Below, in pieces: positions 3,631 through 17,164 of a stretch of DNA of 64,000 nucleotides; position 1 is the stretch's first letter; each line of letters starts with the position of its first letter. The DNA comes from Parapedobacter lycopersici (lineage in GTDB: Bacteria; Bacteroidota; Bacteroidia; Sphingobacteriales; Sphingobacteriaceae): positions 62,001 to 126,000 of the forward strand of contig NZ_JAMSLW010000004.1 in the NCBI RefSeq assembly GCF_024643285.1. Reading direction: 5' to 3'. A model generated the notes under the pieces. It was not told the origin of the DNA, did no database searches, and worked only from the letters and a program-made list of their open reading frames with translations. Both the position numbers and the translations under genes were made by a program.

Positions 3631-4761
3631 TCAGCGCATGAGCTTCAGGTTACGGAAGTGTGTTTTCATCATGCGAAGCCCTTCGGGCATACGCATGAGG
3701 TTCAGTCCGCTGCGGACCGCATTTGCTTTGCTGATCTGATACAGTAACCGCCAATGCCGGCAGACTTCCTTCCAGGCGAAAAATACAGAATGCGCAGGGT
3801 CATAGATATGGGCGGGCTCGCTCGCTGCGCCATTCAGCTCAATAATCGAAAAATTCGTTCCGGCACGGAGGTCGTCCCAGCTTTTGAATTTAACATCCAT
3901 GCGTCCGTAATGAAAACCGGGGATCTGCTGGAATAGCTCATCCATGGTTTGCCGGAGCGCGTGATCGGCCTGATGGCTGGCATCGGTAAACTTGGCTCCC
4001 CGGCAGTGGCTGCCATAAGGCAACGTATACCGCAATCCCTTGGGCAACACCTCATCCAGCCGCGCACCGTAAGTCGTGCGGAGCCGCGGCAGCTGGATAA
4101 AATACCGGTCTTCTTTTTGCAGGAGCTGTTCCATGCTCGATACCCCGTCGCCGGTTACCGTCAGGTAGTTTTTATGGACGATACCGGAAATATGCCCGTG
4201 CGCTTCACCGGGAAAACGGTAATAAAACACACCGGCTTCGTGTTCGTAATCCACAAACTCCTGGATGAGGAAATCCACCTTGCTGCTCCGGCAGTAGGCT
4301 TCCAGGTCGGACACCGTGTGCAGGAGTTTCACCTGTACACCCCTGTCGCCGATATCCGGTTTGGCCATCAGGGGAAAATGCAATCCGTTTTCGTCAAGCG
4401 ATTGCCGGAGTGCATCGCTGGCAATACCGGCAGGGTAAAGCAATGTTTTCGGGTAATAGGCTACGGGAATGAGGCGATAGATTTCGGTCTTTTTGGCCAG
4501 TGTAAATCCGGCGTTCGGCATGCCGGGATTGGCGGCGCTGAAGAAAAACAAGGTGCGTGCACGGAGGCTGAGCCACAACCAGTAGGGAATAACCGGCGCA
4601 TAAAAGACATATACCGGCCAGTATTCCCAATGGCTGGCTCTGATGAAGGTCTCCTTTAACATACCAAACCACCGGTGCCGCAATGGCCGGGCCGGTGGTG
4701 GAGTTACGGTTTCAACGGCTTCTGGCCTTTGAATGCCCGTTATCGTCTCTTTATCGCGCAT
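3631..4761 (-). CDS. ATP-grasp protein, D-alanine--D-alanine ligase-like
   Basis: A 376-residue protein. The core (about residues 95-345) is an ATP-grasp fold: PLMAKPDIGDRGVQV resembles the ATP-binding loop, FLIQEFVDYEHEAGVFYYRF the central strands, and GRMDVKFKSWDD with FSIIELNGAASEP the Mg-binding end. Such enzymes join a carboxylate to an amine through an acyl-phosphate. The N-terminal ~90 residues carry a Trp/Tyr-rich, partly hydrophobic segment (44-72) that ordinary Ddl enzymes lack. Database entries of this type are often named D-Ala--D-Ala ligase, but the real substrate is unknown. It stands alone, convergent with the HMA-like gene. Confidence 0.75.
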   Translation of the reverse strand: MRDKETITGIQRPEAVETVTPPPARPLRHRWFGMLKETFIRASHWEYWPVYVFYAPVIPYWLWLSLRARTLFFFSAANPGMPNAGFTLAKKTEIYRLIPVAYYPKTLLYPAGIASDALRQSLDENGLHFPLMAKPDIGDRGVQVKLLHTVSDLEAYCRSSKVDFLIQEFVDYEHEAGVFYYRFPGEAHGHISGIVHKNYLTVTGDGVSSMEQLLQKEDRYFIQLPRLRTTYGARLDEVLPKGLRYTLPYGSHCRGAKFTDASHQADHALRQTMDELFQQIPGFHYGRMDVKFKSWDDLRAGTNFSIIELNGAASEPAHIYDPAHSVFFAWKEVCRHWRLLYQISKANAVRSGLNLMRMPEGLRMMKTHFRNLKLMR

Positions 4762-4984
4762 ATCGGCGGATATGTTTATGTACCAGTGCCGTGCTTCCGC
4801 AGGCCACTGCTGGAATAAACGCTTTCTTCCCTTAATTATTGCAACAGGTTAACCAGGAAATTATCCGATGATTTTTTCTGCGCCACCACGCGCTTTCAGG
4901 ACAGGCCAACGGTTTGTAAATTGCCCGGTGACGGCAACGGCCGACGCCATGCTGTCACCGGACAAACAGGTGATTACCGCGATA

Positions 4985-5431
4985 TTAGTCAATCATCAGG
5001 AAGTTGCCGTTCCGATCAAATTTCAGCTCCATCCGATTGGAGAGCCGGACTTCCTGTCCGCGGTCATCCAATTCCCAGCTGACGACGAACATATCCGGAT
5101 ATTGGGTTTTTACATAATCGAGAATGGGTGCGGGAACGGTACTGTCCGGCAGCTTTGCAACACCTTCCACACTGCGGATCTCCCCTTTTTTACCGAATTC
5201 CAGCTGGTAGCCTTCGGCCAGGTAAACCTCATACGTGGTCTTCATGTCATCCCGTTCCTTTACCACCTGGGTAACTTCATGTGCCGGAAAATGCTGGGTC
5301 AGGTACATACTGGCTTCTTTCGGCAGTTCATCAGCTCCGACAACGCTGGTCTTATCACAGGAAGTGAAAGCCAGCATCAGGATGCTGCATACGGTCATCA
5401 AACGAGTTGTTTTTTTCATGTTAACTTGCAT
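4985..5431 (-). CDS. PepSY-like domain lipoprotein
   Basis: Starts with a signal peptide ending in a lipobox (LAFTSC), so it is probably exported and lipid-anchored. The mature part (about residues 35-148) resembles the PepSY-like (DUF2874) beta-lactamase-inhibitor-like fold of Bacteroidota: a helix (PKEASMYLTQHFP) followed by repeated strands such as TYEVYLAEGYQLEFGKKGEI and VRLSNRMELKFDRNGNFL. Only about one and a half repeats are present. The role is unknown; binding or inhibiting an envelope protease has been suggested for PepSY domains. It lies 64 bp from the STN-domain gene start-to-end boundary, on the same strand and downstream of the ECF operon, so co-transcription is possible. Confidence 0.8.
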   Translation of the reverse strand: MQVNMKKTTRLMTVCSILMLAFTSCDKTSVVGADELPKEASMYLTQHFPAHEVTQVVKERDDMKTTYEVYLAEGYQLEFGKKGEIRSVEGVAKLPDSTVPAPILDYVKTQYPDMFVVSWELDDRGQEVRLSNRMELKFDRNGNFLMID

Positions 5432-5495
5432 TTTATTACGATTTTTGACCTAAGACAACTGTCCGGCGCTTTACCCCTACTCGTTTTTAAAATAT

Positions 5496-7100
5496 TTACC
5501 AGCTATAGCGAATACCGGCCGTAAAGCCGGCAATCCAGGCTCCTTTTCCATCGTGAAACTTACGTATCGTCCATGGTTGCTCTTCAGCTAATACCTGTCC
5601 GTTTCCGGAAACAATACCAAGCGAAGGTCCGCCGTACAGCTCCAGCCGCGGGGTCAGCCGTACCCGCGGCAGCAACGCCATGTCGTACCGGAACTGCTGT
5701 CGGTGAAAATCGGTGTTTGTGCTGCCCGTTAACTCGGCATCCAGCCCTACCGGTGCCCCGGCAATCAACCGTGCTCCGATACCAGCCTGTACCTGGTATG
5801 GAAGCTGCTGGCCTGCCAGTCCGTACCCGAGTCCGATGATGCCATAAAGTACGCTTCCCCCCGACCGGAAACTGAGCCGGAGATAGCCCTGTTCGTCGCC
5901 TTCCACCGAGAGGCTCCGGTGCCCGTTTTTGATGAGATTGACCAGTCCGATGGGGTAGTCGCTGCTGTCGGCCAGGTTGACCAGTGCGGCCAGCTGGACG
6001 CCGTCCACCTTTCCGGCACGGTTCATGATGCCCGCCAGCTGCATGCCTGTTATGTGTTTTCCCGTAGCGTTGTACAGTCCGGCCACCTGCATGCCCTCGA
6101 ATGAACCTACCACGCGATTGGCGATCCCCGCCGCCTGAATCCCCCGTACGTCGCCGCCGACCAGGTTAAATAGGCCAGCGGCCTGGGCATAGGAAACGTC
6201 CAGCTCGTTGACCGCGAATGCACCGGAGAGCTCCACGCCACTTACCCCGCCGGCATGGCCTCCAATGAGGTTGACCGACACGCGGCTGACCGTCCGGCTA
6301 CTGGAAAGGCCCTGGGTACTGATGCCCGGCAACAGTGAAAACTGGTACGACTGTTCCGCCAAAAATGCACCGATATTAAGCTGCTGCACGCGCTGTTTCG
6401 AATTGGTAAAAAAACGGCCGAAGCGCGTCCGCCAAAGCGGCATGCCACTATCGTGTCCGGGATAATACCGGAAAGTAAGCTGCCGGTTCCTGTGGCGCAC
6501 TTCCACCGGCATCAATATCACGAGCGTGGTATCCCGGTAATCTTCCTTGCTCACCCCCATCCATACCGTTGGGTCGGGTTTCCGGATCTCCAGTTTGAAA
6601 TAGCCCTGCCCGTCGGACAACGCCGATGCGAAGGAATGTTGATCATAGACACTCACATTGGCTACACCCGTTTGCGTCTGCGCGTCGGTGATGCGGCCCT
6701 CCACCACCAGCAGCTGGTCCGTGGCCTCTCCTATTTCGATGGCAGGCTGCAACCGGTTGGGCGAATACCGGATGATTACGTAATCCGACAGTTCTTTAAA
6801 GTCGTATCCCGGCCCCAGCAGGCGCAGCAGAAAGTCGTGCAGCGAGCCGTGAAAAGCAGGCACGGAAATGATGCTGTCCGCCGGCACGCGGTCACTGCTG
6901 TATGAAAAATGGAAATTTCCACCGGCACCCAACGTTTCCAGGATGGCAGCGATGGGCTGCCGCGTGATCTCCCGGACGGCAACCTGCTGCTGCAGGTGTT
7001 GCGCCCGGACTGGGCCAGCTGTCAGAATGGCTAATAGTAAGCTGGCGAGGAAGACAAAGCCCCCGCGGCAGGCGGGTTTGTCCGCTATCGGATCACCCAT
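5496..7100 (-). CDS. STN / carboxypeptidase-regulatory-like / LA_2272-repeat surface protein
   Basis: A 534-residue exported protein: signal peptide (to about 33), STN (secretin/TonB N-terminal) domain (about 40-115), carboxypeptidase regulatory-like beta domain (131-205, starting VEGRITDAQTQTGVANV), then LA_2272-type repeats (about 277-395) with the recurrent GxQxAGxxN motif, and a C-terminal segment with alternating strands that could be an outer-membrane barrel. In Bacteroidota, STN domains of TonB receptors contact FecR anti-sigma factors. Here the gene overlaps the fecR gene by 16 bp and stands where a SusC-type receptor would normally be, but no TonB plug or receptor domain is present. 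Binding partner unknown. Confidence 0.8.
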   Translation of the reverse strand: MGDPIADKPACRGGFVFLASLLLAILTAGPVRAQHLQQQVAVREITRQPIAAILETLGAGGNFHFSYSSDRVPADSIISVPAFHGSLHDFLLRLLGPGYDFKELSDYVIIRYSPNRLQPAIEIGEATDQLLVVEGRITDAQTQTGVANVSVYDQHSFASALSDGQGYFKLEIRKPDPTVWMGVSKEDYRDTTLVILMPVEVRHRNRQLTFRYYPGHDSGMPLWRTRFGRFFTNSKQRVQQLNIGAFLAEQSYQFSLLPGISTQGLSSSRTVSRVSVNLIGGHAGGVSGVELSGAFAVNELDVSYAQAAGLFNLVGGDVRGIQAAGIANRVVGSFEGMQVAGLYNATGKHITGMQLAGIMNRAGKVDGVQLAALVNLADSSDYPIGLVNLIKNGHRSLSVEGDEQGYLRLSFRSGGSVLYGIIGLGYGLAGQQLPYQVQAGIGARLIAGAPVGLDAELTGSTNTDFHRQQFRYDMALLPRVRLTPRLELYGGPSLGIVSGNGQVLAEEQPWTIRKFHDGKGAWIAGFTAGIRYSW

Positions 7101-8050
7101 GTACCCCCCTCGTTTACCACCGTTACCGCCAATGTTTCTGCAACAACATGCAGGATCTGTTCCAGCGAATCGCGTTCATAGGTTGCCGTCAGTGTCAGGT
7201 TTTCCAACTCGGGGCGTTCGATCCGGATGGGCTGTCCATAGGCTTCCGACAGGACTTCGGCAACGCGCCGGAGGGAGGTGTTTTTCAGTACAAACCGGTT
7301 TTCCACGTAGTATTGGTACAGGCTGTCTTCCACGCGGTCTACGACAAATATGTCGTCGTCCGGATTGATGACAGCGCGCTGTCCTGCACCGAGCTGCCGC
7401 ACCCACGTACCGTACTGCACCCTGACCCGGCCGGATGACACGGTGACCGCTACCCGGTCGCCCATTTTCCTGATATTAAATGACGTGCCCAGCACCGTTA
7501 TCCGGGTATCACCCACGGTTACCTCAAAAGGTTTGCTTTCGTTGCGGGCGACATCGAAAAAGACCTCACCGGCACCCATACTGACCAGCCGCCTGCGGGC
7601 CAGTGCCGTGGGGGCAACATGGATGGAACTGCCCTTATTCAGGGTAACTACGGTACCGTCCGGCAATGTATCGCGCAGCACGGCGTGCGTGGAGGCTAGG
7701 TCCTTACCTACAAAACGTTCCGCCGGCGTATACAGCACGCCATAAAGGATCGCGCCCACCGACAGGAAGGCCAGCAGTATCGCCGCAACGCGCATCCATC
7801 GCATTGTGACTGTTGGCCGCAACCGGGTCTGCCGCTGCTGTTCGGCCAGGCGTCCTTTAAACCGCTCCCATGCTGCGTCACTGTCGCGGTGGGCGGGCAT
7901 CGCCGCGTCATGGCTGAGTTTCCATGCTGCCTGCAGCTGCTGGTAGTGCCGCTCATTTTCCGGATTTCCGGCAAGCCAGTCCTGTACCACTTGCTGCGCC
8001 TCGGCGTCGCTTTCGCCCAACATATATTTTACCAGGATTTCGTCGTTCAT
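7085..8050 (-). CDS. FecR-family anti-sigma factor
   Basis: A 321-residue inner-membrane regulator. The N-terminal cytoplasmic part (1-83) would bind the sigma factor, one membrane helix follows (about 86-106, AAILLAFLSVGAILYGV), and the periplasmic FecR domain (about 120-215) shows LPDGTVVTLNKGS and GEVFFDVARNESKPFEV. The C-terminal DUF4974-type domain (about 250-321) resembles the STN fold. It overlaps the sigma gene by 4 bp (ATGA, 8047-8050) and the downstream STN gene by 16 bp, so the three are very likely translated from one message. Confidence 0.95.
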   Translation of the reverse strand: MNDEILVKYMLGESDAEAQQVVQDWLAGNPENERHYQQLQAAWKLSHDAAMPAHRDSDAAWERFKGRLAEQQRQTRLRPTVTMRWMRVAAILLAFLSVGAILYGVLYTPAERFVGKDLASTHAVLRDTLPDGTVVTLNKGSSIHVAPTALARRRLVSMGAGEVFFDVARNESKPFEVTVGDTRITVLGTSFNIRKMGDRVAVTVSSGRVRVQYGTWVRQLGAGQRAVINPDDDIFVVDRVEDSLYQYYVENRFVLKNTSLRRVAEVLSEAYGQPIRIERPELENLTLTATYERDSLEQILHVVAETLAVTVVNEGGTWVIR

Positions 8051-8574
8051 AACTTAAAGAGATTAATCAGCAAAAAAGCCAGGCTTACAAGAAAGTCGGC
8101 CAGTTGCACGCGCAGTACTTTCAGGGCCTTTCCCATGTGCGCTTCCACGGTCTTGATCGATATTTGCAGGCGGTCGGCAATTTCCTGGTATTTCAGTTCC
8201 TCGAAACGGCTCAGTTGGAAAACGGTACGGCATTTTTCCGGCAGTTGCTGCAGTGCCTCTTCGAGGCGGTGCTCCAGCTCCCGGTCATCCGTGCTGTCCG
8301 TCACCACCCCAACGGATTCCCCCTGTCCCTGCACATACCGCTGATGCAAGTGCCACCGTTTCTTACTGTTCAGACTTTCATGATAAATAGCCTTATAGAG
8401 GTAGGCCTTCCAGGAAACCTGGATGGCAATGGCCTCCCGCTTCTCCCAGAGCCTGAGGAAAACCGTCTGCACAATTTCCTCAGCCAGCGCCTCGTCGTGG
8501 ACGATGGTGTAGGCATAGGCAAATAACGGATTGTAGTATTCCTTAAACAACCGCTCAAACTGCCTTTCATCCAT
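8047..8574 (-). CDS. ECF RNA polymerase sigma factor (FecI-like)
   Basis: A 175-residue ECF factor of the Bacteroidota FecI-like group. Region 2 is FKEYYNPLFAYAYTIVHDEALAEEIVQ in pieces, and region 4 is the helix-turn-helix ELKYQEIADRL followed by ISIKTVEAHMGKALKVLR. The ATG at 8574 (MDERQFERLF) is preferred by alignment to the family; an ATG at 8652 in the same frame would add 26 residues. Its stop overlaps the fecR start (ATGA), a sign of translational coupling of sigma and anti-sigma. Confidence 0.92.
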   Translation of the reverse strand: MDERQFERLFKEYYNPLFAYAYTIVHDEALAEEIVQTVFLRLWEKREAIAIQVSWKAYLYKAIYHESLNSKKRWHLHQRYVQGQGESVGVVTDSTDDRELEHRLEEALQQLPEKCRTVFQLSRFEELKYQEIADRLQISIKTVEAHMGKALKVLRVQLADFLVSLAFLLINLFKL

Positions 8575-8920
8575 GCGGGGCACGTCGCCGGTATGTGTTG
8601 CCAATGGCTCTTCTTTCAATCGTTTGTGGTTTTTGTACCTGTGACAATCCATCGCGCGGTTACCCTTACCTGCGCCGGAATTATTTTGCAAATTTAGCCA
8701 AATAACGCCGATTAATAGCCGGCATGCGGCGTGCAGTATTATACAACCGGCAACCGTCATCGGTGTTTCCGCTTGCAGATGGGGCGTAACAATCCTGTAA
8801 CATCGAGCACCTCCGGCGATAAAAAAAAGAAGAATCAATTGGATTGACCGTTAAAAAGTGCAATTTTGTGTTGTATTTATATTGCATTACATCATTCTTT
8901 ACCAATAGAAAACTGCAACT
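8575..8920. other. Divergent intergenic region
   Basis: A 346-bp spacer between the FecI-like sigma gene (minus) and the PQQ-type dehydrogenase gene (plus). It contains a minus-strand promoter element at 8689-8696 and A/T-rich DNA before the plus-strand gene. The sigma frame is open through most of it, so a longer sigma N-terminus is not excluded. No other gene is seen. Confidence 0.5.
8689..8696 (-). promoter_or_regulatory. TAnnTTTG promoter element of the sigma/FecR operon
   Basis: TAAATTTG on the minus strand, 37 bp upstream of the ATG at 8652 and 115 bp upstream of the preferred ATG at 8574. No clear TTG is seen at the usual -33 distance, so support is moderate. Confidence 0.45.
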
Positions 8921-10231
8921 ATGAAAAATCAAACTGAAAAGACAAGCATCGTAAACGGGCGAAGTAACTGGTGCCTTGCGCTGCTTTCAGGACTGGTACT
9001 CGCTTCCTGCAACCCGGCCGGCAGCGGCAAGCTGGCTACAGACACCGACAACGGGGGATTGAAATTACCCGAAGGCTTTGGGGTATTGGTCGTTGCCGAC
9101 AGCCTCGGGGCAGCACGCCACCTGGCCGTAAACGCCAAGGGTGACATCTTTGTCAAACGCCGTAACATCGAAGACGGACGGGGCATCGTGATGCTTTCCG
9201 ACACCGATGGCGACGGCCGGGCGGATAAGCAAACCGGGTTCGGCGATTACAATGGAACCGGTATTTTTCTTGACAGCAATTATTTATACGCGTCGTCCAA
9301 CACCGACATTTTCCGCTATGCGCTGGATGAAAATGGCCACGTCATTGATCCTAATGCGCCGGACACCGTGGTTACGGGACTTATCGATCGTCGTGCGCAT
9401 AATTCCAAGCCATTTACCATTGATGGTGCCGGTAACCTCTACGTAAACATCGGCGCTTATTCAAATGCCTGCCAGGTACAGGACCGGACCAAAGGTTCCC
9501 CGGCTATGCAACCCTGCCCTATTCTCGATTCTGCCGGTGGCATCTGGCAGTTCAGGGCCGACGGCATCAGGCAGACTTATGGCGACGGTGAGCGTTACGC
9601 CACCGGCCTGCGCAATGTGATGGGTATTGACTGGAATAACCAGGCCAACACCCTCTTTGTGACGCAGCATGGACGGGACAACCTGCATGATCTGTTCCCC
9701 GAACTGTACGACACCAAGGCATCGGCGACTTTACCCGCGGAAGCGTTGTTCCGTCTCGACAAGGGAGCTAATGCCGGATGGCCATATACCTATTACGATC
9801 AGGAACAGAAGAAAATCGTCGTAGCCCCCGAATACGGCGGCGACGGCAAGAAAGAAAGTACGGAAGACTACCTTACGCCCGCGGTCGCTTTCCCCGGCCA
9901 CATGGGTCCGAACGACCTCCTGTTCTATACAGGAGATATGTTCCCGGAGAAATATAAAAACGGCGCCTTCGTCGCCTTCCACGGTTCATGGAACCGGGCA
10001 CCGGAGGAACAGGCCGGTTACATGGTTGCTTTCATTCCGTTCAAAGACGGCGCTCCAAGCGGTGAGTGGGAAGTATTTGCGGACGGTTTCGCCGGTGTGG
10101 AAAAAATAGCCGCCCCGGATGATGCAAAACACCGCCCCTGCGGTCTTGCACAGGGGCCGGATGGCTCATTGTACATTTCCGACGATGTTACCGGCAAAAT
10201 TTACCGCGTTATCTATGAAGGTGGTGCATAA
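8921..10231 (+). CDS. PQQ-dependent sugar dehydrogenase-like lipoprotein (sorbosone dehydrogenase type)
   Basis: A 436-residue protein with a signal peptide and lipobox (VLASC), so probably periplasmic and lipid-anchored. The rest is a six-bladed beta-propeller of the glucose/sorbosone dehydrogenase type (GSDH superfamily), with blade-like repeats such as HLAVNAKGDIFV, GNLYVNIGAYS, ATGLRNVMGIDWN and the end strand PDGSLYISDDVTGKIYRV. Enzymes of this group oxidise aldose sugars with PQQ; the substrate here cannot be read from the sequence. Its end overlaps the cytochrome c gene by 17 bp, which suggests the cytochrome takes its electrons. Confidence 0.88.
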   Translation: MKNQTEKTSIVNGRSNWCLALLSGLVLASCNPAGSGKLATDTDNGGLKLPEGFGVLVVADSLGAARHLAVNAKGDIFVKRRNIEDGRGIVMLSDTDGDGRADKQTGFGDYNGTGIFLDSNYLYASSNTDIFRYALDENGHVIDPNAPDTVVTGLIDRRAHNSKPFTIDGAGNLYVNIGAYSNACQVQDRTKGSPAMQPCPILDSAGGIWQFRADGIRQTYGDGERYATGLRNVMGIDWNNQANTLFVTQHGRDNLHDLFPELYDTKASATLPAEALFRLDKGANAGWPYTYYDQEQKKIVVAPEYGGDGKKESTEDYLTPAVAFPGHMGPNDLLFYTGDMFPEKYKNGAFVAFHGSWNRAPEEQAGYMVAFIPFKDGAPSGEWEVFADGFAGVEKIAAPDDAKHRPCGLAQGPDGSLYISDDVTGKIYRVIYEGGA

Positions 10232-10706
10232 CCGCACGCTGTTCAGGGGCCTATTGGTTGCATTGGTAGCCGGTGCCTGCATGGCCTGTGGTGGAAACCA
10301 GTCAAAAGACAGCGGCACTGCCGCCACCGTAACGGATACGCCCGAAACTGTGGAGCAGGAGCCGCCGGTACTCACCGCGGGAATGACAGCAGGGAAAGCC
10401 ATATACGAACAGAATTGCGTGACGTGTCACCAGACCAACGGGAAAGGCGTTTCGGGCCTGAACCCGCCGCTGGCCGGTACAGATTACGTAACGGGAGATA
10501 AAAACCGGCTGATCGGCATCGTTTTGAATGGTTCAAATGTGGGACTGGAAGTGAACGGCGCGGTTTACAGTAATGCCATGCCTGCTCATGCTTTTTTGAG
10601 CGACGAGGAAGTTGCGAATGTACTATCGTACATTCGCAACAGCTTCGGAAACCGGGCGGATACCGTATCGGCGGCACTGGTAAAAGAAGTCAGGGCTTTG
10701 CTTTAA
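10215..10706 (+). CDS. Cytochrome c lipoprotein
   Basis: A 163-residue class I cytochrome c. Signal peptide with lipobox-like MACGG (Cys25), an acidic linker, then the haem domain with CVTCH (C68, C71, H72) and a likely Met122 axial ligand in NAMPAH, followed by the C-terminal helix FLSDEEVANVLSYIRNSFG. The ATG at 10215 lies inside the end of the dehydrogenase gene (17-bp overlap), and is chosen because it gives a proper signal peptide; earlier in-frame codons do not. Probable electron acceptor of the preceding dehydrogenase. Confidence 0.88.
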   Translation: MKVVHNRTLFRGLLVALVAGACMACGGNQSKDSGTAATVTDTPETVEQEPPVLTAGMTAGKAIYEQNCVTCHQTNGKGVSGLNPPLAGTDYVTGDKNRLIGIVLNGSNVGLEVNGAVYSNAMPAHAFLSDEEVANVLSYIRNSFGNRADTVSAALVKEVRALL

Positions 10707-10717
10707 TTGCCCGGCGG

Positions 10718-13252
10718 CTATTCCAGGTTCTTCAGGATTTTTTTCAGGTCAATGCCCTTGCCCAGCACGGGTTTAAAGATGTCTCCGTTTTCGCGGATAC
10801 GGTCCAGCGCATTAGCCAGGTTGAAATCCCGCATGTCCAGGCCCTGCTTTACCTCATCCCAATGCAGTGGCATCGATACGGTGGCACCCGGTTTGGGTCG
10901 CAGGGAGTAAGGAGCCGCTAAGGTGGCGGAAGGCCTGTTCTGTAGAAAGTCGATATAAATTTTTCCTTTCCGCTTGTCTGTCATCCGCGCTACGCTTGTA
11001 AAATCCAGCTGTCCGTTTGCGTGAACCGCTATCCATCGGGCCAGTAACTGGGACTGGTCATATGTATATTTTGCGCCCAATGGAATGTAAATGTGCAGGC
11101 CCGTGGAACCCGATGTTTTGCAGTAACCCGGAATATTCACTTCATCGAGGACGTCTTTGATAACGCGGGCTACCTGGATGACCTGCTCAAATGTATTGCC
11201 TTTATCGGGGTCGAGATCCAGGATACACCAATCCGGATGGTCGGGCTTGCGGATCGTGCTGCTCCAAGGATTCATTTCAATGGCCGCGAGATTAGCCATA
11301 TAAAGCAAGCTGGCTTCGTTATTACCCAGCATAAAGTTTTTCCGCCGGTCTTCATCCTCCGAACGGTACGGGTATTTATCGATCCAGCCGGGCACCTTGC
11401 CGGTGACATCTTTTTGGTAAAAACTCTTACCCCGGATGCCATTGGGAAAACGGTTAAGGGATTGCGGCCGGTCTTTCAAATAAGGTAAAATATACGGAGC
11501 CACCTGATGGTAATAGTTCAGCAGGTCGCGTTTGGTATAGCCTGCATCTGGCCAGAACACCTTATTGAGATTAGTCAATTTCAGTTCGTGTCCGTCTACG
11601 GTCACGACCGCTTCCTTACCCGCGGTATCGAGTAGCGGTTTCCGCTGTCGGGCGGTTGCCGTACGTTTTTTGGGTGTTGTCATCGCTTTGGGTTTTGCCA
11701 GGGTTTCCACCGTATGGCCGGACCGTACGGATTTATTATTTTCCGTGATATCGGTATCGCCGGCATAGCGGTCTTTCAATTTGATGAGCAGCCAGGCATT
11801 TTCCGCCCGGCCTTTTGTTCTGGCCAGCGCATACTCTCCCTTCAGTTTACTGCCGTTGAGTTTAAATTTCATGGCTCCTTTATGCCATTGCCGGCGCATC
11901 TCCCGGTCCTGCTCGGTTTTGGTTCCTGCGTTCCCGACCGGCTGGTAGGTACCCTCGTCCCAGATGATCATCGCACCTGCACCGTAGTTGCCTTTGGGGA
12001 TGACACCTTCAAAATTCCGGTAGTCAAATGGGTGGTCCTCCGTCATCATGGCCAGCCGCTTAACAGCCGGATCGATGGAAGGTCCCTTGGGCACCGCCCA
12101 ACTTTTGAGCACACCTCCCATCTCCAGGCGCAGGTCGTAGTGCAGGCTGGTTGCCCGGTGCTGCTGTACCACAAAGCGGAGCCGGGCATCCGATGGTTTG
12201 CCCCCCGTAGGTTCCGGATTATCGGCAAAGGTCCTTTTTCCATAATATTCGCCCAGCGATGCTGCCCCAGCTTCCGTTTCCGCTTCGATTTCGGTCAGTG
12301 GCTTGGGCAGTTCACGGACAACCTGTGTCGGCTTTTTATCGTCGCGGAATCCTAAAAAAGTAGCAGGTTTGCGGATCCTGCCGGATTTGGTCCATGTAGC
12401 AAACTCAAAATTGGCGATCAGTTTCGGTTCGACCCAGTGGGATATGGCTCCCTTGGTGTCCAGCACACGGTTTACAAACGGGGAGGTATCGCGCTCCAGG
12501 GCTTTCAGCTTATCCAGGATTTCACGCATTTCCTTTTCCTTGTAGCCGCTGCCACTGCGGCCGATCCAGACCAGCCTGCCGTCTTCATAGGCGCCGAACA
12601 GGAGGTTTTTGAATGCGCGGCTTTTGTCGGAATCAGCCCAGCCGCCGATCACAAACTCCTGCCGCTTGCGCGTCGGTACTTTTAGCCAGTCGTTGTTACG
12701 TATTCCCTCCTGGTAGCTACTTTCACGCCGTTTGGCAATAACCCCTTCCCTGTTTTCTTCAAGCACTTTCCGGTATAGCGCAGACCCGTCGTCGACGCTC
12801 TCACTGAATTGGAGTACGCTGTTTTTTTTTACCAGCAAACGCAGCAGCTCTTTTCGCTCGGCAAGTGGCAGCGGCCGCAGGTCATTACCGTCGAGCCAGA
12901 GCAGGTCGAATACGCAATACCGGATTGGCGTTCGCTTGCCGTTATATAATTGCAGCGCATCAAAATCAGCCATGCCGTGTTCGTCGAAGACCACGACCTC
13001 CCCATCGATAATCACCTCATGGCCCAGGTCTTTCAATGCCGCTTCAATCAGCGGATACCGTTTGGTATAATCAAGCCCGTTCCGCGATGCCATCCGTACG
13101 TGCTTTTTTTGTACAAACGATACAATGCGGTAGCCGTCCCACTTAATTTCATACAGGTATTCCGGATTGTTCAGCGGCTGTTTAACCAGTGTACAAAGCA
13201 TAGGTGAAATCCGGTCGGGCATTTCTGTTGTCGTTTGTCGTTTTGCAGCCAT
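10718..13252 (-). CDS. ligD: Multifunctional DNA ligase D (ligase-phosphoesterase-polymerase)
   Basis: The end-processing and ligating enzyme of bacterial non-homologous end joining, 844 residues. Order: ATP-dependent ligase (about 14-310, adenylation Lys37 in EIKWDG), 3'-phosphoesterase (about 358-500, with HRATSLHYDLRLE and HPFDY), and archaeo-eukaryotic-primase-type polymerase (about 548-835, catalytic DLD at 679-681 and SGSTGLHIY). This ligase-first order differs from Pseudomonas LigD, which begins with the phosphoesterase, and is familiar in Bacteroidota. All three active sites appear intact. Ku, its partner, is encoded about 11 kb away (24597-25352). The gene is single, and convergent with the cytochrome gene across 11 bp. 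Confidence 0.97.
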   Translation of the reverse strand: MAAKRQTTTEMPDRISPMLCTLVKQPLNNPEYLYEIKWDGYRIVSFVQKKHVRMASRNGLDYTKRYPLIEAALKDLGHEVIIDGEVVVFDEHGMADFDALQLYNGKRTPIRYCVFDLLWLDGNDLRPLPLAERKELLRLLVKKNSVLQFSESVDDGSALYRKVLEENREGVIAKRRESSYQEGIRNNDWLKVPTRKRQEFVIGGWADSDKSRAFKNLLFGAYEDGRLVWIGRSGSGYKEKEMREILDKLKALERDTSPFVNRVLDTKGAISHWVEPKLIANFEFATWTKSGRIRKPATFLGFRDDKKPTQVVRELPKPLTEIEAETEAGAASLGEYYGKRTFADNPEPTGGKPSDARLRFVVQQHRATSLHYDLRLEMGGVLKSWAVPKGPSIDPAVKRLAMMTEDHPFDYRNFEGVIPKGNYGAGAMIIWDEGTYQPVGNAGTKTEQDREMRRQWHKGAMKFKLNGSKLKGEYALARTKGRAENAWLLIKLKDRYAGDTDITENNKSVRSGHTVETLAKPKAMTTPKKRTATARQRKPLLDTAGKEAVVTVDGHELKLTNLNKVFWPDAGYTKRDLLNYYHQVAPYILPYLKDRPQSLNRFPNGIRGKSFYQKDVTGKVPGWIDKYPYRSEDEDRRKNFMLGNNEASLLYMANLAAIEMNPWSSTIRKPDHPDWCILDLDPDKGNTFEQVIQVARVIKDVLDEVNIPGYCKTSGSTGLHIYIPLGAKYTYDQSQLLARWIAVHANGQLDFTSVARMTDKRKGKIYIDFLQNRPSATLAAPYSLRPKPGATVSMPLHWDEVKQGLDMRDFNLANALDRIRENGDIFKPVLGKGIDLKKILKNLE

Positions 13253-13385
13253 ATTGATGCCCTATTTCGTAGTAGAACAAACGGAAATAGAAATGGTTGA
13301 GCCGCATTACGGTATGGGAACAGTATATTGAAGGTGTCGAAACGGACAAAAGTGCCTATATTTATTCATCGTATAACTATTTCCC

Positions 13386-14492
13386 ATGATGAAAAACGCA
13401 TGTATTTACGGGCTGGTCATGATCGGACTCAGCATCAGCCTTTCTTCCCGGGGGCAGCAGCTTGCGCCCGGTTTTGATAAAGCGGAGTTCCGGGAATTGC
13501 TGTATATTTCGGCAAGGACCGGCGCTTTTGACAGCAGCTATTACAAGGATATTCCCGAGCCAGGTTATCACATGGCCTACCGATCGGCAGTCATGGGGCT
13601 GGATAACCGTTGGGAGCTTTGGTTAAATGACCGTTCCTCGGCAGTCATCAGTATCCGGGGTACTACGGAAAAGGCGGAAAGCTGGCTGGCCAACTTCTAT
13701 GCGGCCATGGTACCGGCAAAGGGACAGCTGCAGATCAGCGAGCGGGACACCTTTACGTATGCACTGGCCGACCATCCCCGGGCTGCGGTGCATGTGGGCT
13801 GGCTGGTTAGTCTGGCTTTTCTGTCGCAGGACATGCTTCCCAAACTTGATTCGTGCTACCGCGCGGGTATAAAAAACGTGATCCTGACCGGCCACAGCCA
13901 GGGCGGGGCGATCACCTTTCTGCTAACGGCGTATCTGTATAACCTGCAAAAGCAGGGAAGATTGCCTGCGGATATCCGCTTCAAAACCTACTGCAGTGCC
14001 AGTCCCAAACCCGGCAACCTGTATTTTGCCTATGCTTATGAGGTGATGACGCAGGGTGGATGGTCGTACAATGTGGTTAACGCGGCAGACTGGGTGCCGG
14101 AGACGCCGATGTCGATCCAGACCCTGGCGGATTTTAATGAAACCAATCCCTTTGTCAATGCGGATATGCTTATCAAAAAACAGCGGTTCTTAAAGCGGCT
14201 TACGCTTCGGTACGTATACAACCGGCTAAACAAACCCACCATACGCGCCCAGCGGAATTATGAAAAATTCCTGGGGAAAATGACTTCCAAGATGGTTAAA
14301 AACACCCTTCCCGGATATGTACCTCCCGATTATTACAGCAGTAACCATTATGTAAGAACCGGAACCACCGTGGTTCTGATGGGCGGTGAAGACTATTACA
14401 AACGGTATCCGGACAATCCGGAAACCCCATTTGTGCATCATGGCCACCACCCGTACCTCTATCTGCTGGCCCAACCCGGCAGCCATCCGTAG
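13386..14492 (+). CDS. Exported lipase-family (class 3) protein
   Basis: A 368-residue alpha/beta hydrolase with a signal peptide ending near SRGQQ. The nucleophile elbow is GHSQGG (Ser171), within the pattern of class 3 (fungal-type) lipases, in which IRGTTEKAESWLAN (about 90-103) forms the region before it. The substrate is unknown; an extracytoplasmic lipid or ester is likely. It stands between ligD and the ligase-associated cluster but on its own, with 72 bp to the next gene, and has no evident link to DNA repair. Confidence 0.85.
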   Translation: MMKNACIYGLVMIGLSISLSSRGQQLAPGFDKAEFRELLYISARTGAFDSSYYKDIPEPGYHMAYRSAVMGLDNRWELWLNDRSSAVISIRGTTEKAESWLANFYAAMVPAKGQLQISERDTFTYALADHPRAAVHVGWLVSLAFLSQDMLPKLDSCYRAGIKNVILTGHSQGGAITFLLTAYLYNLQKQGRLPADIRFKTYCSASPKPGNLYFAYAYEVMTQGGWSYNVVNAADWVPETPMSIQTLADFNETNPFVNADMLIKKQRFLKRLTLRYVYNRLNKPTIRAQRNYEKFLGKMTSKMVKNTLPGYVPPDYYSSNHYVRTGTTVVLMGGEDYYKRYPDNPETPFVHHGHHPYLYLLAQPGSHP

Positions 14493-14564
14493 CCTGTTAT
14501 CCGGCGGCTAAAACAAAATGGTGGCTTTCGCCTTATTATAAGCAACAACCAGGGACAAGCAGCT

Positions 14565-15569
14565 ATGAAACGGTTATTACAGGTAAACGACAGGGGGATT
14601 TATTGCGAGCGGGCCGACGTATATATAGACCCCTGGCAACCGGTACAACGTGCGCTCATCACACATGCCCATAGCGATCATGCCCGGAGGGGTAACGGGC
14701 AGTACCTTTGTCACCATGATACCGCTCCGATCTTAACCCTAAGGCTGGGTACCGATATCCGGATCCAGCGCGTGTCTTACGGTGAACCGATACAAATCAA
14801 CGGGGTGACATTCAGTTTTCACCCGGCCGGGCACATCCTTGGGTCTGCGCAGATCCGGGTAGCCTATAAAGGCGAGATCTGGGTAGTAACGGGCGATTAT
14901 AAATTGCTCAACGACGGGTTAAGCCAACCTTATGAGCCTGTAGTTTGCCATCACCTGATTACGGAATCTACCTTTGGACTGCCGGTTTACGCGTTTAAGT
15001 CCCCTTTTGCTGTCTATAAAGAAATAAAGGACTGGTGGCGGGAAAATCAGCAGGCAGGTGTGAATACGGTATTGCTCTGCTATGCGCTGGGGAAAGCACA
15101 GTCCATTTTAAACCAGCTACGTGAAGAAACAGACGTTCCCATCCTGCTGCATGGTGCCGTCGCCAATGTAAATGGAGCTCTCGCCGCACGGGGCTATCAT
15201 TTCCCGGGGCAGTGGATGGAAACGGAGCCGGTGACCAAGGCACCGAAAGGGGCATTGATTCTCGCTCCTCCATCAGCCCTCGGATCGCCCTGGATGCGGC
15301 GGATGGGCAATTACCGGGTAGCCCTGTGCAGCGGATGGATGCAACTACGCGGCGCGCGGCGAAGACGCGGGGTGGATAAAGGGTTTGTGCTTTCGGACCA
15401 CTGTGATTTCCGGCAGCTTAACGAGGCCATTGATTTAACCGGGGCCGAACACATCTATGTAACGCACGGCTATGAAAGCCAGTTTACCCGCTGGGTGCGT
15501 GAGGAACGGGGATTACCTGCCGAGATCATGAACACCTTGTATGAGGATATGGAACTGGAAGAATTATGA
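14565..15569 (+). CDS. Ligase-associated DNA exonuclease (metallo-beta-lactamase fold)
   Basis: A 334-residue MBL/beta-CASP-type nuclease of the ligase-associated exonuclease family (TIGR04122). The metal site HAHSDH is at residues 34-39, HPAGHILGSAQI and TGDYKLLN follow, and DHCDF plus THGYESQF form the C-terminal part. It is related to the mRNA 3'-end/SNM1 nuclease fold. It is the first gene of a tight four-gene operon: its stop overlaps the ligase start by 4 bp (15566-15569). It probably trims DNA ends for the ligase; this is known for the family by association, not by direct test here. Confidence 0.93.
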   Translation: MKRLLQVNDRGIYCERADVYIDPWQPVQRALITHAHSDHARRGNGQYLCHHDTAPILTLRLGTDIRIQRVSYGEPIQINGVTFSFHPAGHILGSAQIRVAYKGEIWVVTGDYKLLNDGLSQPYEPVVCHHLITESTFGLPVYAFKSPFAVYKEIKDWWRENQQAGVNTVLLCYALGKAQSILNQLREETDVPILLHGAVANVNGALAARGYHFPGQWMETEPVTKAPKGALILAPPSALGSPWMRRMGNYRVALCSGWMQLRGARRRRGVDKGFVLSDHCDFRQLNEAIDLTGAEHIYVTHGYESQFTRWVREERGLPAEIMNTLYEDMELEEL

Positions 15570-17164
15570 GAGTGTTTGCACAGCTTTTTGAAGCCATTGA
15601 CAGCTCGACCAAAACCAGCCGTAAGGTGGCGGCCATGGTCGACTATTTCGACCGCGTATCCGACGAAGAAAAATTGTTTGCCGTTGCGCTGCTGATCGGC
15701 AATAAACCAAAACGCCCGGTAGCGACCACGTCGCTGCGGGAATGGGCTTCCGCACTCGCGGGCATTCCATCGTGGCTCTTTGAGGAAAGCTATTACGCTG
15801 TTGGCGACCTGGGCGAAACGCTGACGCTGCTTATGCCGCAGCAGTCGCGGCCGGAGGAAACGCCTACACTGAAGGCCGTATTTGCGACCATGACCGCACT
15901 GCGGAAATATAGCCCGATGGAACAGCGGGAAACGCTGTATACCTTTTGGACAACGCTCCGGGGTACGGCGTTGTTCCTCTTCAACAAAATGCTAACGGGC
16001 AGCCTGCGTGTCGGCGTTTCGCGTAAGCTCGTGATCAACGCGCTGGCAAGGCACCTGGACCGGGATGAGGCAACGGTAGCCCATCAGCTGATGGGCAAAT
16101 GGGACCCCTTGACTACCCGTTTTACCGACCTGTTTCCCCAACAGGGGACAGCGCTTCCCCATCACATCCCCTATCCTTTTTACCTCGCTTATGCGCTGGA
16201 CCGGGAACCAGCCGATCTGGGCGATATCAACAACTGGCTCCTGGAGAAAAAACTTGACGGTATCCGCGGCCAGCTGATCCGCCGCAACGGGGAGTTATTC
16301 ATCTGGTCGAGGGGCGAGGATTTGCTTACCGATAAGTTTCCTGAGTTTGGACCGCTTACGACCCTTTTGCCGGATGGTACCGTCATTGACGGCGAAATTA
16401 TCCCCTGGAAAGACGGTCATCCATTGCCCTTTGCACGGATGCAGACGCGTATCGGACGCAAAAACCTTTCGGCAAAAATGCTACAGGAAGTTCCCTTGGT
16501 GATGGTTTGCTTTGACCTGCTGGAATACGAGGGCAGGGATATCAGACATGAACCGCTCCTGATCCGGCGGGCGCAGCTTGCGGCACTCATCGATAACCCC
16601 GCACTGCAGCGCATCCTGCTGCGATCGGAAGAAATGGCATTCCCCGACTGGCAGGCGGCAGCCGACTTCCGGGAACGGGCGCGGCAGTTTCATTGCGAAG
16701 GGCTGATGCTCAAACAATGGCAAAGCGCTTATGGCGTGGGGCGAAGGAAAGGCGACTGGTGGAAGTGGAAAGCCGACCCGTTTTCCATCGATGCCGTCAT
16801 GATTTATGCACAAAGCGGCCACGGCCGGCGGGCAAATCTGTATACCGATTATACATTTGCCGTGTGGGACGGCGACACACTGGTTCCCTTTGCTAAAGCC
16901 TATTCCGGCCTGACCGATACGGAGATCAAATCACTTGACCGCTGGATTAAGCAGAACACAGTCGAAAAATTCGGTCCGGTCCGGCGCGTCAAGCCCGTAC
17001 ACGTTTTTGAAATCGGCTTTGAGGGCGTTCAGGCAAGTAACCGCCATAAGTCCGGTGTGGCGCTTCGGTTTCCCCGTATGCTTCGGTGGCGGCTGGATAA
17101 AACGGCGGCCGAAGCCAATACGAAAGACGATTTGCTGGATCTTTTACGTTTATATGGACAATGA
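15566..17164 (+). CDS. ATP-dependent DNA ligase of the ligase-associated cluster
   Basis: A 532-residue ligase (TIGR04120 group, LigB/LigC-like). An N-terminal DNA-binding domain (about 1-200) precedes the adenylation domain with the active-site Lys229 in EKKLDGIR, further nucleotidyl-transferase motifs (IDGEIIPW, FDLLEYEGRDIR, EGLMLK), and an OB-fold C-terminus. It seals nicks or breaks using ATP and is separate from LigD. It overlaps both neighbours by 4 bp (ATGA at 15566 and 17161), so the cluster is one translationally coupled operon. Confidence 0.95.
   Translation: MRVFAQLFEAIDSSTKTSRKVAAMVDYFDRVSDEEKLFAVALLIGNKPKRPVATTSLREWASALAGIPSWLFEESYYAVGDLGETLTLLMPQQSRPEETPTLKAVFATMTALRKYSPMEQRETLYTFWTTLRGTALFLFNKMLTGSLRVGVSRKLVINALARHLDRDEATVAHQLMGKWDPLTTRFTDLFPQQGTALPHHIPYPFYLAYALDREPADLGDINNWLLEKKLDGIRGQLIRRNGELFIWSRGEDLLTDKFPEFGPLTTLLPDGTVIDGEIIPWKDGHPLPFARMQTRIGRKNLSAKMLQEVPLVMVCFDLLEYEGRDIRHEPLLIRRAQLAALIDNPALQRILLRSEEMAFPDWQAAADFRERARQFHCEGLMLKQWQSAYGVGRRKGDWWKWKADPFSIDAVMIYAQSGHGRRANLYTDYTFAVWDGDTLVPFAKAYSGLTDTEIKSLDRWIKQNTVEKFGPVRRVKPVHVFEIGFEGVQASNRHKSGVALRFPRMLRWRLDKTAAEANTKDDLLDLLRLYGQ

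Follow-up and report, generated by a model that had tools for sequence, protein, structure and literature searches.

Descriptions of cell-surface signalling usually tie it to TonB-dependent transporters. An operon of Parapedobacter lycopersici raises the question of whether this relay can also be served by a protein that is not a TonB receptor. It lies in the window, by which we mean the whole stretch of 64,000 nucleotides that was analysed (contig NZ_JAMSLW010000004.1, positions 62,001 to 126,000), and comprises three genes:

8047..8574, minus strand: extracytoplasmic function (ECF) sigma factor of the TIGR02985 family, 175 aa (TIGR02985 at 162 bits against a cut-off of 126; Sigma70_r2 and r4)
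7085..8050, minus strand: FecR-type anti-sigma factor, 321 aa, with FecR and FecR_C domains (PF04773 at 3e-18, PF16344 at 1e-10)
5496..7100, minus strand: protein of 534 aa with STN, carboxypeptidase-like (CPD) and LA_2272 parts, proposed as a non-TonB sensor from domain models and alignment

The sigma factor and FecR genes overlap by 4 nt, and the FecR gene overlaps the third gene by 16 nt; the operon spans 5496-8574 on the minus strand, exactly as the first-pass annotation of this DNA had placed it. Based on our results, we suggest that the third protein, hereafter the STN-LA protein, carries the STN domain of cell-surface signalling on an outer-membrane protein that is not a TonB receptor, and that the sigma factor controls mostly envelope proteins and guards the composition or integrity of the outer membrane. 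We consider this reading rather probable.

Domain architecture of the STN-LA protein

The following parts were distinguished:

7002..7100, minus strand: putative signal peptide, spanning roughly residues 1-33 (assigned by eye; a lipobox was not seen)
6747..7001, minus strand: STN domain, residues 34-118 (E 4.5e-26 with a model made without the window protein)
6501..6722, minus strand: CarboxypepD_reg-like domain, residues 127-200 (8e-30 with a model from relatives)
5976..6245, minus strand: six LA_2272-type repeats of 15/16 aa, residues 286-375 (repeat analysis)
5499..5975, minus strand: tail, residues 376-534, ending in GIRYSW, a possible outer-membrane barrel (hhalign, C-terminal residues)

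Searched alone against Pfam, the window protein gave only CarbopepD_reg_2 (9e-5, below the Pfam cut-off) and CooC_C (0.05), and neither STN, LA_2272 (NF047436) nor NF047437 matched it at E<=1. Domain models were therefore taken from the 30 other members of an alignment of 31 rows (A1); besides the two domains listed above, they located the LA region at residues 231-533 (8e-98). Because the models from relatives match, the STN and LA labels of the window protein are firm, and the order of STN, carboxypeptidase-like and LA_2272 parts read in the first pass stands. Among the 31 members, at E<=0.1, CarbopepD_reg_2 was detected in all 31, LA_2272_repeat (NF047436) in 24, Pfam STN in 20 and the VC2662 family model (NF047437) in 16. 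The LA_2272 repeat model found nothing above its curated cut-off in the genome of P. lycopersici.

The STN columns of A1 aligned to the STN domains of SusC-type proteins, of which almost all came from this genome, at 98.8% in hhalign, and to the FecR C-terminus at 40.7%. As this STN is homologous to those of SusC proteins, the sensor role suggested earlier is well supported; the surface location and the absence of transport, which formed the rest of that suggestion, we can only infer. Plug and TonB barrel are absent from the 16 Pfam families matched by any of the 31 members (E<=0.1), whereas 4/4 SusC proteins of the same genome, used as a positive control, matched Plug. Only about 330 residues follow the carboxypeptidase-like domain. 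As far as can be judged from sequence, then, the STN-LA protein shares the N-terminal STN domain of TonB-dependent transducers and lacks their plug and 22-strand TonB barrel, in line with the earlier view that the third gene does not encode a TonB receptor. A TonB-box pattern matched 0/46 STN-LA proteins versus 8/23 SusC controls, and is too insensitive to count.

Relatives in other genomes

Relatives were sought in 100 related genomes and in 395 genomes of the phylum (three candidates scored per genome), and the neighbouring stretches were then fetched. At least 46 STN-LA proteins were collected, one of them (L074) interrupted by a contig end; they are not a full census. The FecR gene stands directly upstream of 45 of the 46 STN-LA genes and a sigma factor gene precedes it in 44, so that the sigma, FecR and STN genes of a cell-surface signalling system are found together at 44/46 loci. 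The fusion thus recurs with ECF/FecR pairs in other genomes, as had been anticipated, and with one exception, discussed below, it was not found away from them.

The same gene run contains a paralogue with the LA part only (LA-only) at 17 of the 46 loci, a DUF2807 (GIN) protein at 14 and a TonB receptor of the type TBDR4 at nine; given these nine receptors, transport may belong to the system. L124 (G256, 7108-15774), a distant version, is the locus where FecR precedes STN-LA but the sigma gene lies further upstream with other genes in between; its one strand carries in order genes for a sigma factor, DUF2807, a receptor-size protein with a carboxypeptidase-like domain, DUF4249, FecR and STN-LA. 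LA proteins without STN, near which no sigma or FecR gene was found, occur at L125-L129 and L155-L159; three of them (L126, L127, L129) are LA_2272-type proteins of ~490-530 aa from another class of the phylum, with no sigma or FecR gene in the fetched stretch. Viral contigs yielded no confirmed relative; the one locus given by the contig scan (L039) matched none of the STN, CPD, LA, FecR and sigma models.

A different third gene was found in L154 (G091, contig 294), where a 458-aa STN protein (4281-5657) accompanies FecR (5722-6729) and sigma factor (6759-7343) genes. It has no plug, LA repeats or carboxypeptidase-like domain, and its C-terminus has no Pfam match. We note in passing that this operon may represent a second kind of non-TonB transducer.

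FecR loci of the same genome and the FecR tree

The genome of P. lycopersici contributed 25 FecR genes (window, L040, L130-L151). In 23 cases the gene run also encodes a SusC-size protein (1066-1160 aa), and the remaining two, in the window and in L040 (contig 18), carry the STN-LA form. Four of the 23 SusC-size proteins were checked with Pfam: all four have a plug, and two have no detected STN. A third LA protein of this genome, without STN, is encoded on contig 19 (L041).

In a quick tree, the FecRs of 44 STN-LA loci together with that of L154 were split from 24 SusC-type FecRs (SH-aLRT 98), and a constraint placing the 44 in one clade was not rejected (p-AU 0.55). As the SusC side consists almost wholly of one genome (23 sequences, plus one from another genome, L153, where the receptor is broken into two ORFs, 520 and 596 aa long), this split is no survey of the phylum.

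These findings bear on an alternative explanation, namely that the STN-LA protein is a decayed SusC receptor which has kept its STN and carboxypeptidase-like domains by chance. Its first 180 residues do match the N-termini of SusC-size ORFs, and the SusC model TIGR04056 matches 5/31 members weakly (best 4.7e-5). We nevertheless reject this explanation as highly improbable, since 45 complete open frames share the same alternative C-terminus (the 46th being the one cut by a contig end), and the systems have a FecR group of their own and, as described below, their own promoter site.

Some further observations concern the SusC-type loci of this genome. Two SusC-size receptors following sigma/FecR genes (L144, 3664-6864; L147, 2084-5431) have no detected STN; in the tree their FecRs cluster, with long-branch attraction flagged there. 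In those SusC proteins of L130-L151 in which both domains were found, the STN comes before the carboxypeptidase-like domain, unlike the order given in PMC7782687, where an N-terminal extension precedes STN in all cases. A 190-aa STN protein without a barrel (L152, contig 19, 3038-3610) has no FecR gene visible alongside; the two genes after it look, by eye, like those of a pyridoxal-enzyme-like protein and an amidohydrolase.

A promoter-like site shared by the operon and its predicted targets

In upstream stretches of the window's genus a conserved site was spotted by eye, which in the window occurs twice, and the second copy precedes a further gene:

8643..8668, minus strand: promoter-like site TAAGGGTAACCGCGCGATGGATTGTC, 68 nt upstream of the sigma factor ATG
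5454..5479, minus strand: promoter-like site TAGGGGTAAAGCGCCGGACAGTTGTC, in the gap that separates the operon from the PepSY-like gene, whose ATG lies 22 nt further on
4985..5431, minus strand: PepSY-like (PF11396) putative lipoprotein, 148 aa, a proposed sigma factor target

With both sites and the PepSY-like gene, the region extends over 4985-8668 on the minus strand. A scan for sigma-70 promoters stayed below the shuffle level, and a scan for terminators came about one standard deviation above it.

In the genome of P. lycopersici the pattern TRAGGG-N15-TTGTC has four exact occurrences and its reversed control seven. Three of these four sites precede the three LA-family units; the remaining one falls within a SusC-like ORF (L165) and was treated as chance. 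The tighter pattern TARGGGTA-N12-GTTGTC has 20 exact occurrences versus one for the reversed control in nine genomes of the genus. By location these 20 fall at the sigma operon (6), LA-only genes (6), PepSY-like genes (5), a lipid A acyltransferase gene (2, about 150 nt before the gene, one with a 50-aa ORF in between) and the gene of a small outer-membrane barrel (1). Four of the five PepSY-like sites are on a different contig from the operon or 1 Mb away from it. The PepSY-like orthologue is present in six of the nine genomes and carries the site in all six, while a distant paralogue (L215) has none. The site is also missing from G008, the only member of the genus in which no STN-LA protein was matched.

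A matrix trained on the 20 genus sites was applied to 40 loci outside the genus (score threshold 14). It matched upstream of 17/23 LA-only, 15/35 sigma, 8/16 TBDR4, 1/16 DUF2807, 1/36 FecR and 0/37 STN-LA genes, and 5/424 others. Two of these five would belong in the regulon, namely the genes of a small outer-membrane barrel (L058, seen as L208) and of a further DUF2807 protein (L121). Two others, for an epimerase and a DUF6134 protein (L068), have no obvious fit, and the fifth, a 76-aa ORF (L118), has its site in common with the sigma gene. At the SusC loci of the window's own genome the matrix matched 0/154 genes, including 0/22 sigma genes, and among LA-only genes unlinked to an STN-LA operon the site was found in 0/11, one of which (L122) comes from a genome having the system. 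Reversed sequence gave 2/609 matches among other genes versus 13/609 for the forward direction, several of the latter being proposed targets.

At the level of operons, a site precedes some upstream co-directional gene of the run in 33/46, and 30/46 have sites when only sigma or LA-only leaders are counted. The window and L048 have to be added to the 33, as they were falsely missed because the longest ORF start, too far upstream, had been taken. An exact-site search of 80 of 101 genomes, every STN-LA carrier included, found the site in 18/31 genomes with STN-LA versus 1/49 without (Fisher 9e-9; 35 sites versus 8 for the control), and the one non-carrier with a site, G061, has an LA-only gene. 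With the genus of discovery removed, the counts were 10/23 and 1/48 (Fisher 2e-5). Outside the genus, five exact sites do not accompany an STN-LA gene. Two of them precede TBDR4-type receptors (G038, on another contig; G037, about 14 kb off), and the others a 206-aa protein without Pfam match (G074), a FecR gene (G061) and an unassigned ORF (G045).

The TBDR4 genes suggest an alternative, in which the STN-LA protein would be an adaptor, like VreA of Pseudomonas aeruginosa, that links FecR to a separate STN-less TonB receptor sensing the substrate. This would agree with the presence of TBDR4-type genes in nine of the 46 runs, with the site in half of the 16 held-out cases and with the two copies that carry it away from the operon. 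Moreover, two TBDR4s adjoining STN-LA genes have a carboxypeptidase-like domain, a plug just under the Pfam cut-off and no STN, and those of L110 and L114 have no STN model match either. However, TBDR4 is missing from the run at 37/46 loci, the window among them, control by the sigma factor would not by itself imply that it is the sensor, and the label comes from a broad model which may pool several receptors. We hold the adaptor unlikely here, although TBDR4 in other clades keeps it, or a nutrient model, alive.

Repeats, tail and fold

The number of repeats ranges from 5 to 15 among the 45 complete STN-LA proteins and may be odd or even (6, 7 and 8 within the window's genus). Adjacent repeats couple in register, with a mean Z, taken against shuffles within proteins, of 3.65 on the diagonal versus 0.36 off it; an earlier run without this within-protein control gave a stronger, confounded signal. 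Between repeats two positions apart the coupling drops to 2.34, and three or four apart it hardly exceeds background; an antiparallel pattern was not clearly visible. Such coupling suits a stacked solenoid better than an arrangement with one membrane strand for each repeat, a reading on which we do not rely because recent duplication would yield the same coupling.

The tail aligned to five OMP_b-brl_2-type proteins at 67% in hhalign (E 5e-5), and to four other profiles (STN, DUF2807, FecR and the head of the LA region) at 0.1-1.9%. The last residue is F or W in 34/45 complete members, versus 88/578 of the genes above 200 aa in these loci, LA proteins included, and the end of the window protein, TAGIRYSW, agrees with the outer-membrane beta-signal. 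The tail is thus probably a small outer-membrane barrel, on modest evidence. The possible barrel noted in the first pass accordingly gains some support from the tail comparison and the terminal aromatic residue, and none from a single-sequence AlphaFold model of residues 205-534 (mean pLDDT 29.4), which gave no usable structure. Profile searches against solved structures returned nothing for the LA region: the A1 profile matched SusC carboxypeptidase-like domains and then weak, unrelated chains, and an LA-only profile matched none at E<=1.

If the C-terminal part forms a barrel, it could be a channel or porin that passes a small ligand of its own passively, so that the protein would both transport and signal, as TonB transducers do actively. 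The likeness of the tail to outer-membrane barrels would suit this, as would the statement in PMC11637429 that known cell-surface signalling receptors usually transport. No channel feature turned up, none having been sought; the about 160 residues past the repeats should leave room for a small barrel only, and we regard a channel as quite unlikely.

Proposed mechanism and its significance

According to the signalling model that we prefer, the STN-LA protein would be exported, with its small barrel tail in the outer membrane, the LA_2272 array as an elastic element before the tail, and STN in the periplasm. There STN would touch the STN-like C-terminal domain of FecR, a contact established in related systems, where the transducer STN binds this domain of the anti-sigma factor; according to PMC11637429, the binding shields it from proteolysis until a signal arrives. 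STN domains of SusC proteins also act in anti-sigma signalling (PMC7782687). By analogy with such systems, a change in the outer membrane may alter the contact, so that FecR is degraded and the sigma factor set free. The latter presumably recognises TARGGGTA-N12-GTTGTC, the site whose distribution was computed above, and would switch on its own operon, the STN-less LA_2272 paralogue and the PepSY-like lipoprotein, whose PF11396 fold is related to BLIP and SmpA/OmlA according to PMC2954215. Depending on the clade, further targets may be a small outer-membrane barrel, a lipid A acyltransferase, a DUF2807 protein or a TonB receptor. We prefer envelope sensing to nutrient sensing because the predicted targets are mostly envelope proteins; since a TonB receptor belongs to the probable regulon in other clades, the system may leave transport to it rather than do without.

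Several observations weigh against this model. The envelope interpretation depends on family names, the barrel on the single 67% tail comparison, with no help from AlphaFold, and the site was first recognised by eye in one genus; with one mismatch allowed, its looser pattern occurs 12 times in the window's own genome, as in the control (12). There are 13/46 operons without a site at threshold 14, 11 of them real misses (the window's family accounts for five, other families for six; four of them score 9.5-13.1), and 13/31 carrier genomes have no exact site. G001 and G007 possess the system and no PepSY-like orthologue, a TonB receptor shares the run at nine loci, and one STN-LA gene (L113 7112-8875, G403) stands alone, with neither FecR nor sigma gene nearby.

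Among the genes that the sigma factor is predicted to control, the most consistent one encodes the sensor's repeat domain in a copy lacking STN. This permits a more specific proposal, which we put forward as speculative and rather doubtful: LA-only outer-membrane proteins might pair or compete with the sensor, so that their shortage or misassembly would be read directly and corrected, i.e. a homeostat working as a transport-free titration feedback loop on the signalling relay. In that case sensor and main output would share one fold. More generally, if the FecR branch, the promoter site and the non-TonB transducer of these systems are indeed their own, the cell-surface signalling relay would serve general envelope sensing in this phylum, and the system comes with a short list of predicted targets.

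Two other regions of the window were noted by eye: 10718-17164, where two DNA-ligase-like genes (844 and 532 aa) around lipase-like and exonuclease-like genes have the look of a repair cluster, and 2166-2936 on the plus strand, a further sigma-factor-like ORF.

Comparison with known systems

No account of a sigma/FecR/STN-LA architecture was found in the open-licence literature, as represented mostly by titles and the beginnings of abstracts. The existing models for the LA_2272 surface repeat (NF047436) and VC2662 (NF047437) cover the repeats and, unlike STN-LA proteins, contain no STN. The third-gene protein of L154 resembles STN-LA proteins in being an STN protein without plug directly after sigma/FecR genes, and differs in having neither LA repeats nor a carboxypeptidase-like domain.

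With the SusC/TonB-dependent transducers of FecI/FecR systems, the STN-LA systems have in common an STN that would face FecR, an upstream ECF sigma factor, a carboxypeptidase-like domain after STN and apparent autoregulation, here predicted from the shared site. In contrast to them, the STN-LA protein has LA_2272 repeats and a short tail instead of plug and TonB barrel, no SusD-size gene follows it, and its site was not found at any of the 22 sigma genes that accompany SusC in this genome.

The closest precedent of which we are aware is VreA of the VreA-VreR-VreI (PUMA3) system of P. aeruginosa, which PMC2729926 presents as an STN-like cell-surface signalling transducer without TonB barrel and with targets beyond iron uptake. 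VreA is described there as mostly soluble, with a TolA/TonB-like C-terminal domain, whereas the C-terminus of the STN-LA protein appears to consist of the LA region, i.e. repeats and a probable outer-membrane tail, and the STN-LA family, unlike VreA, is spread across many genera of its phylum.

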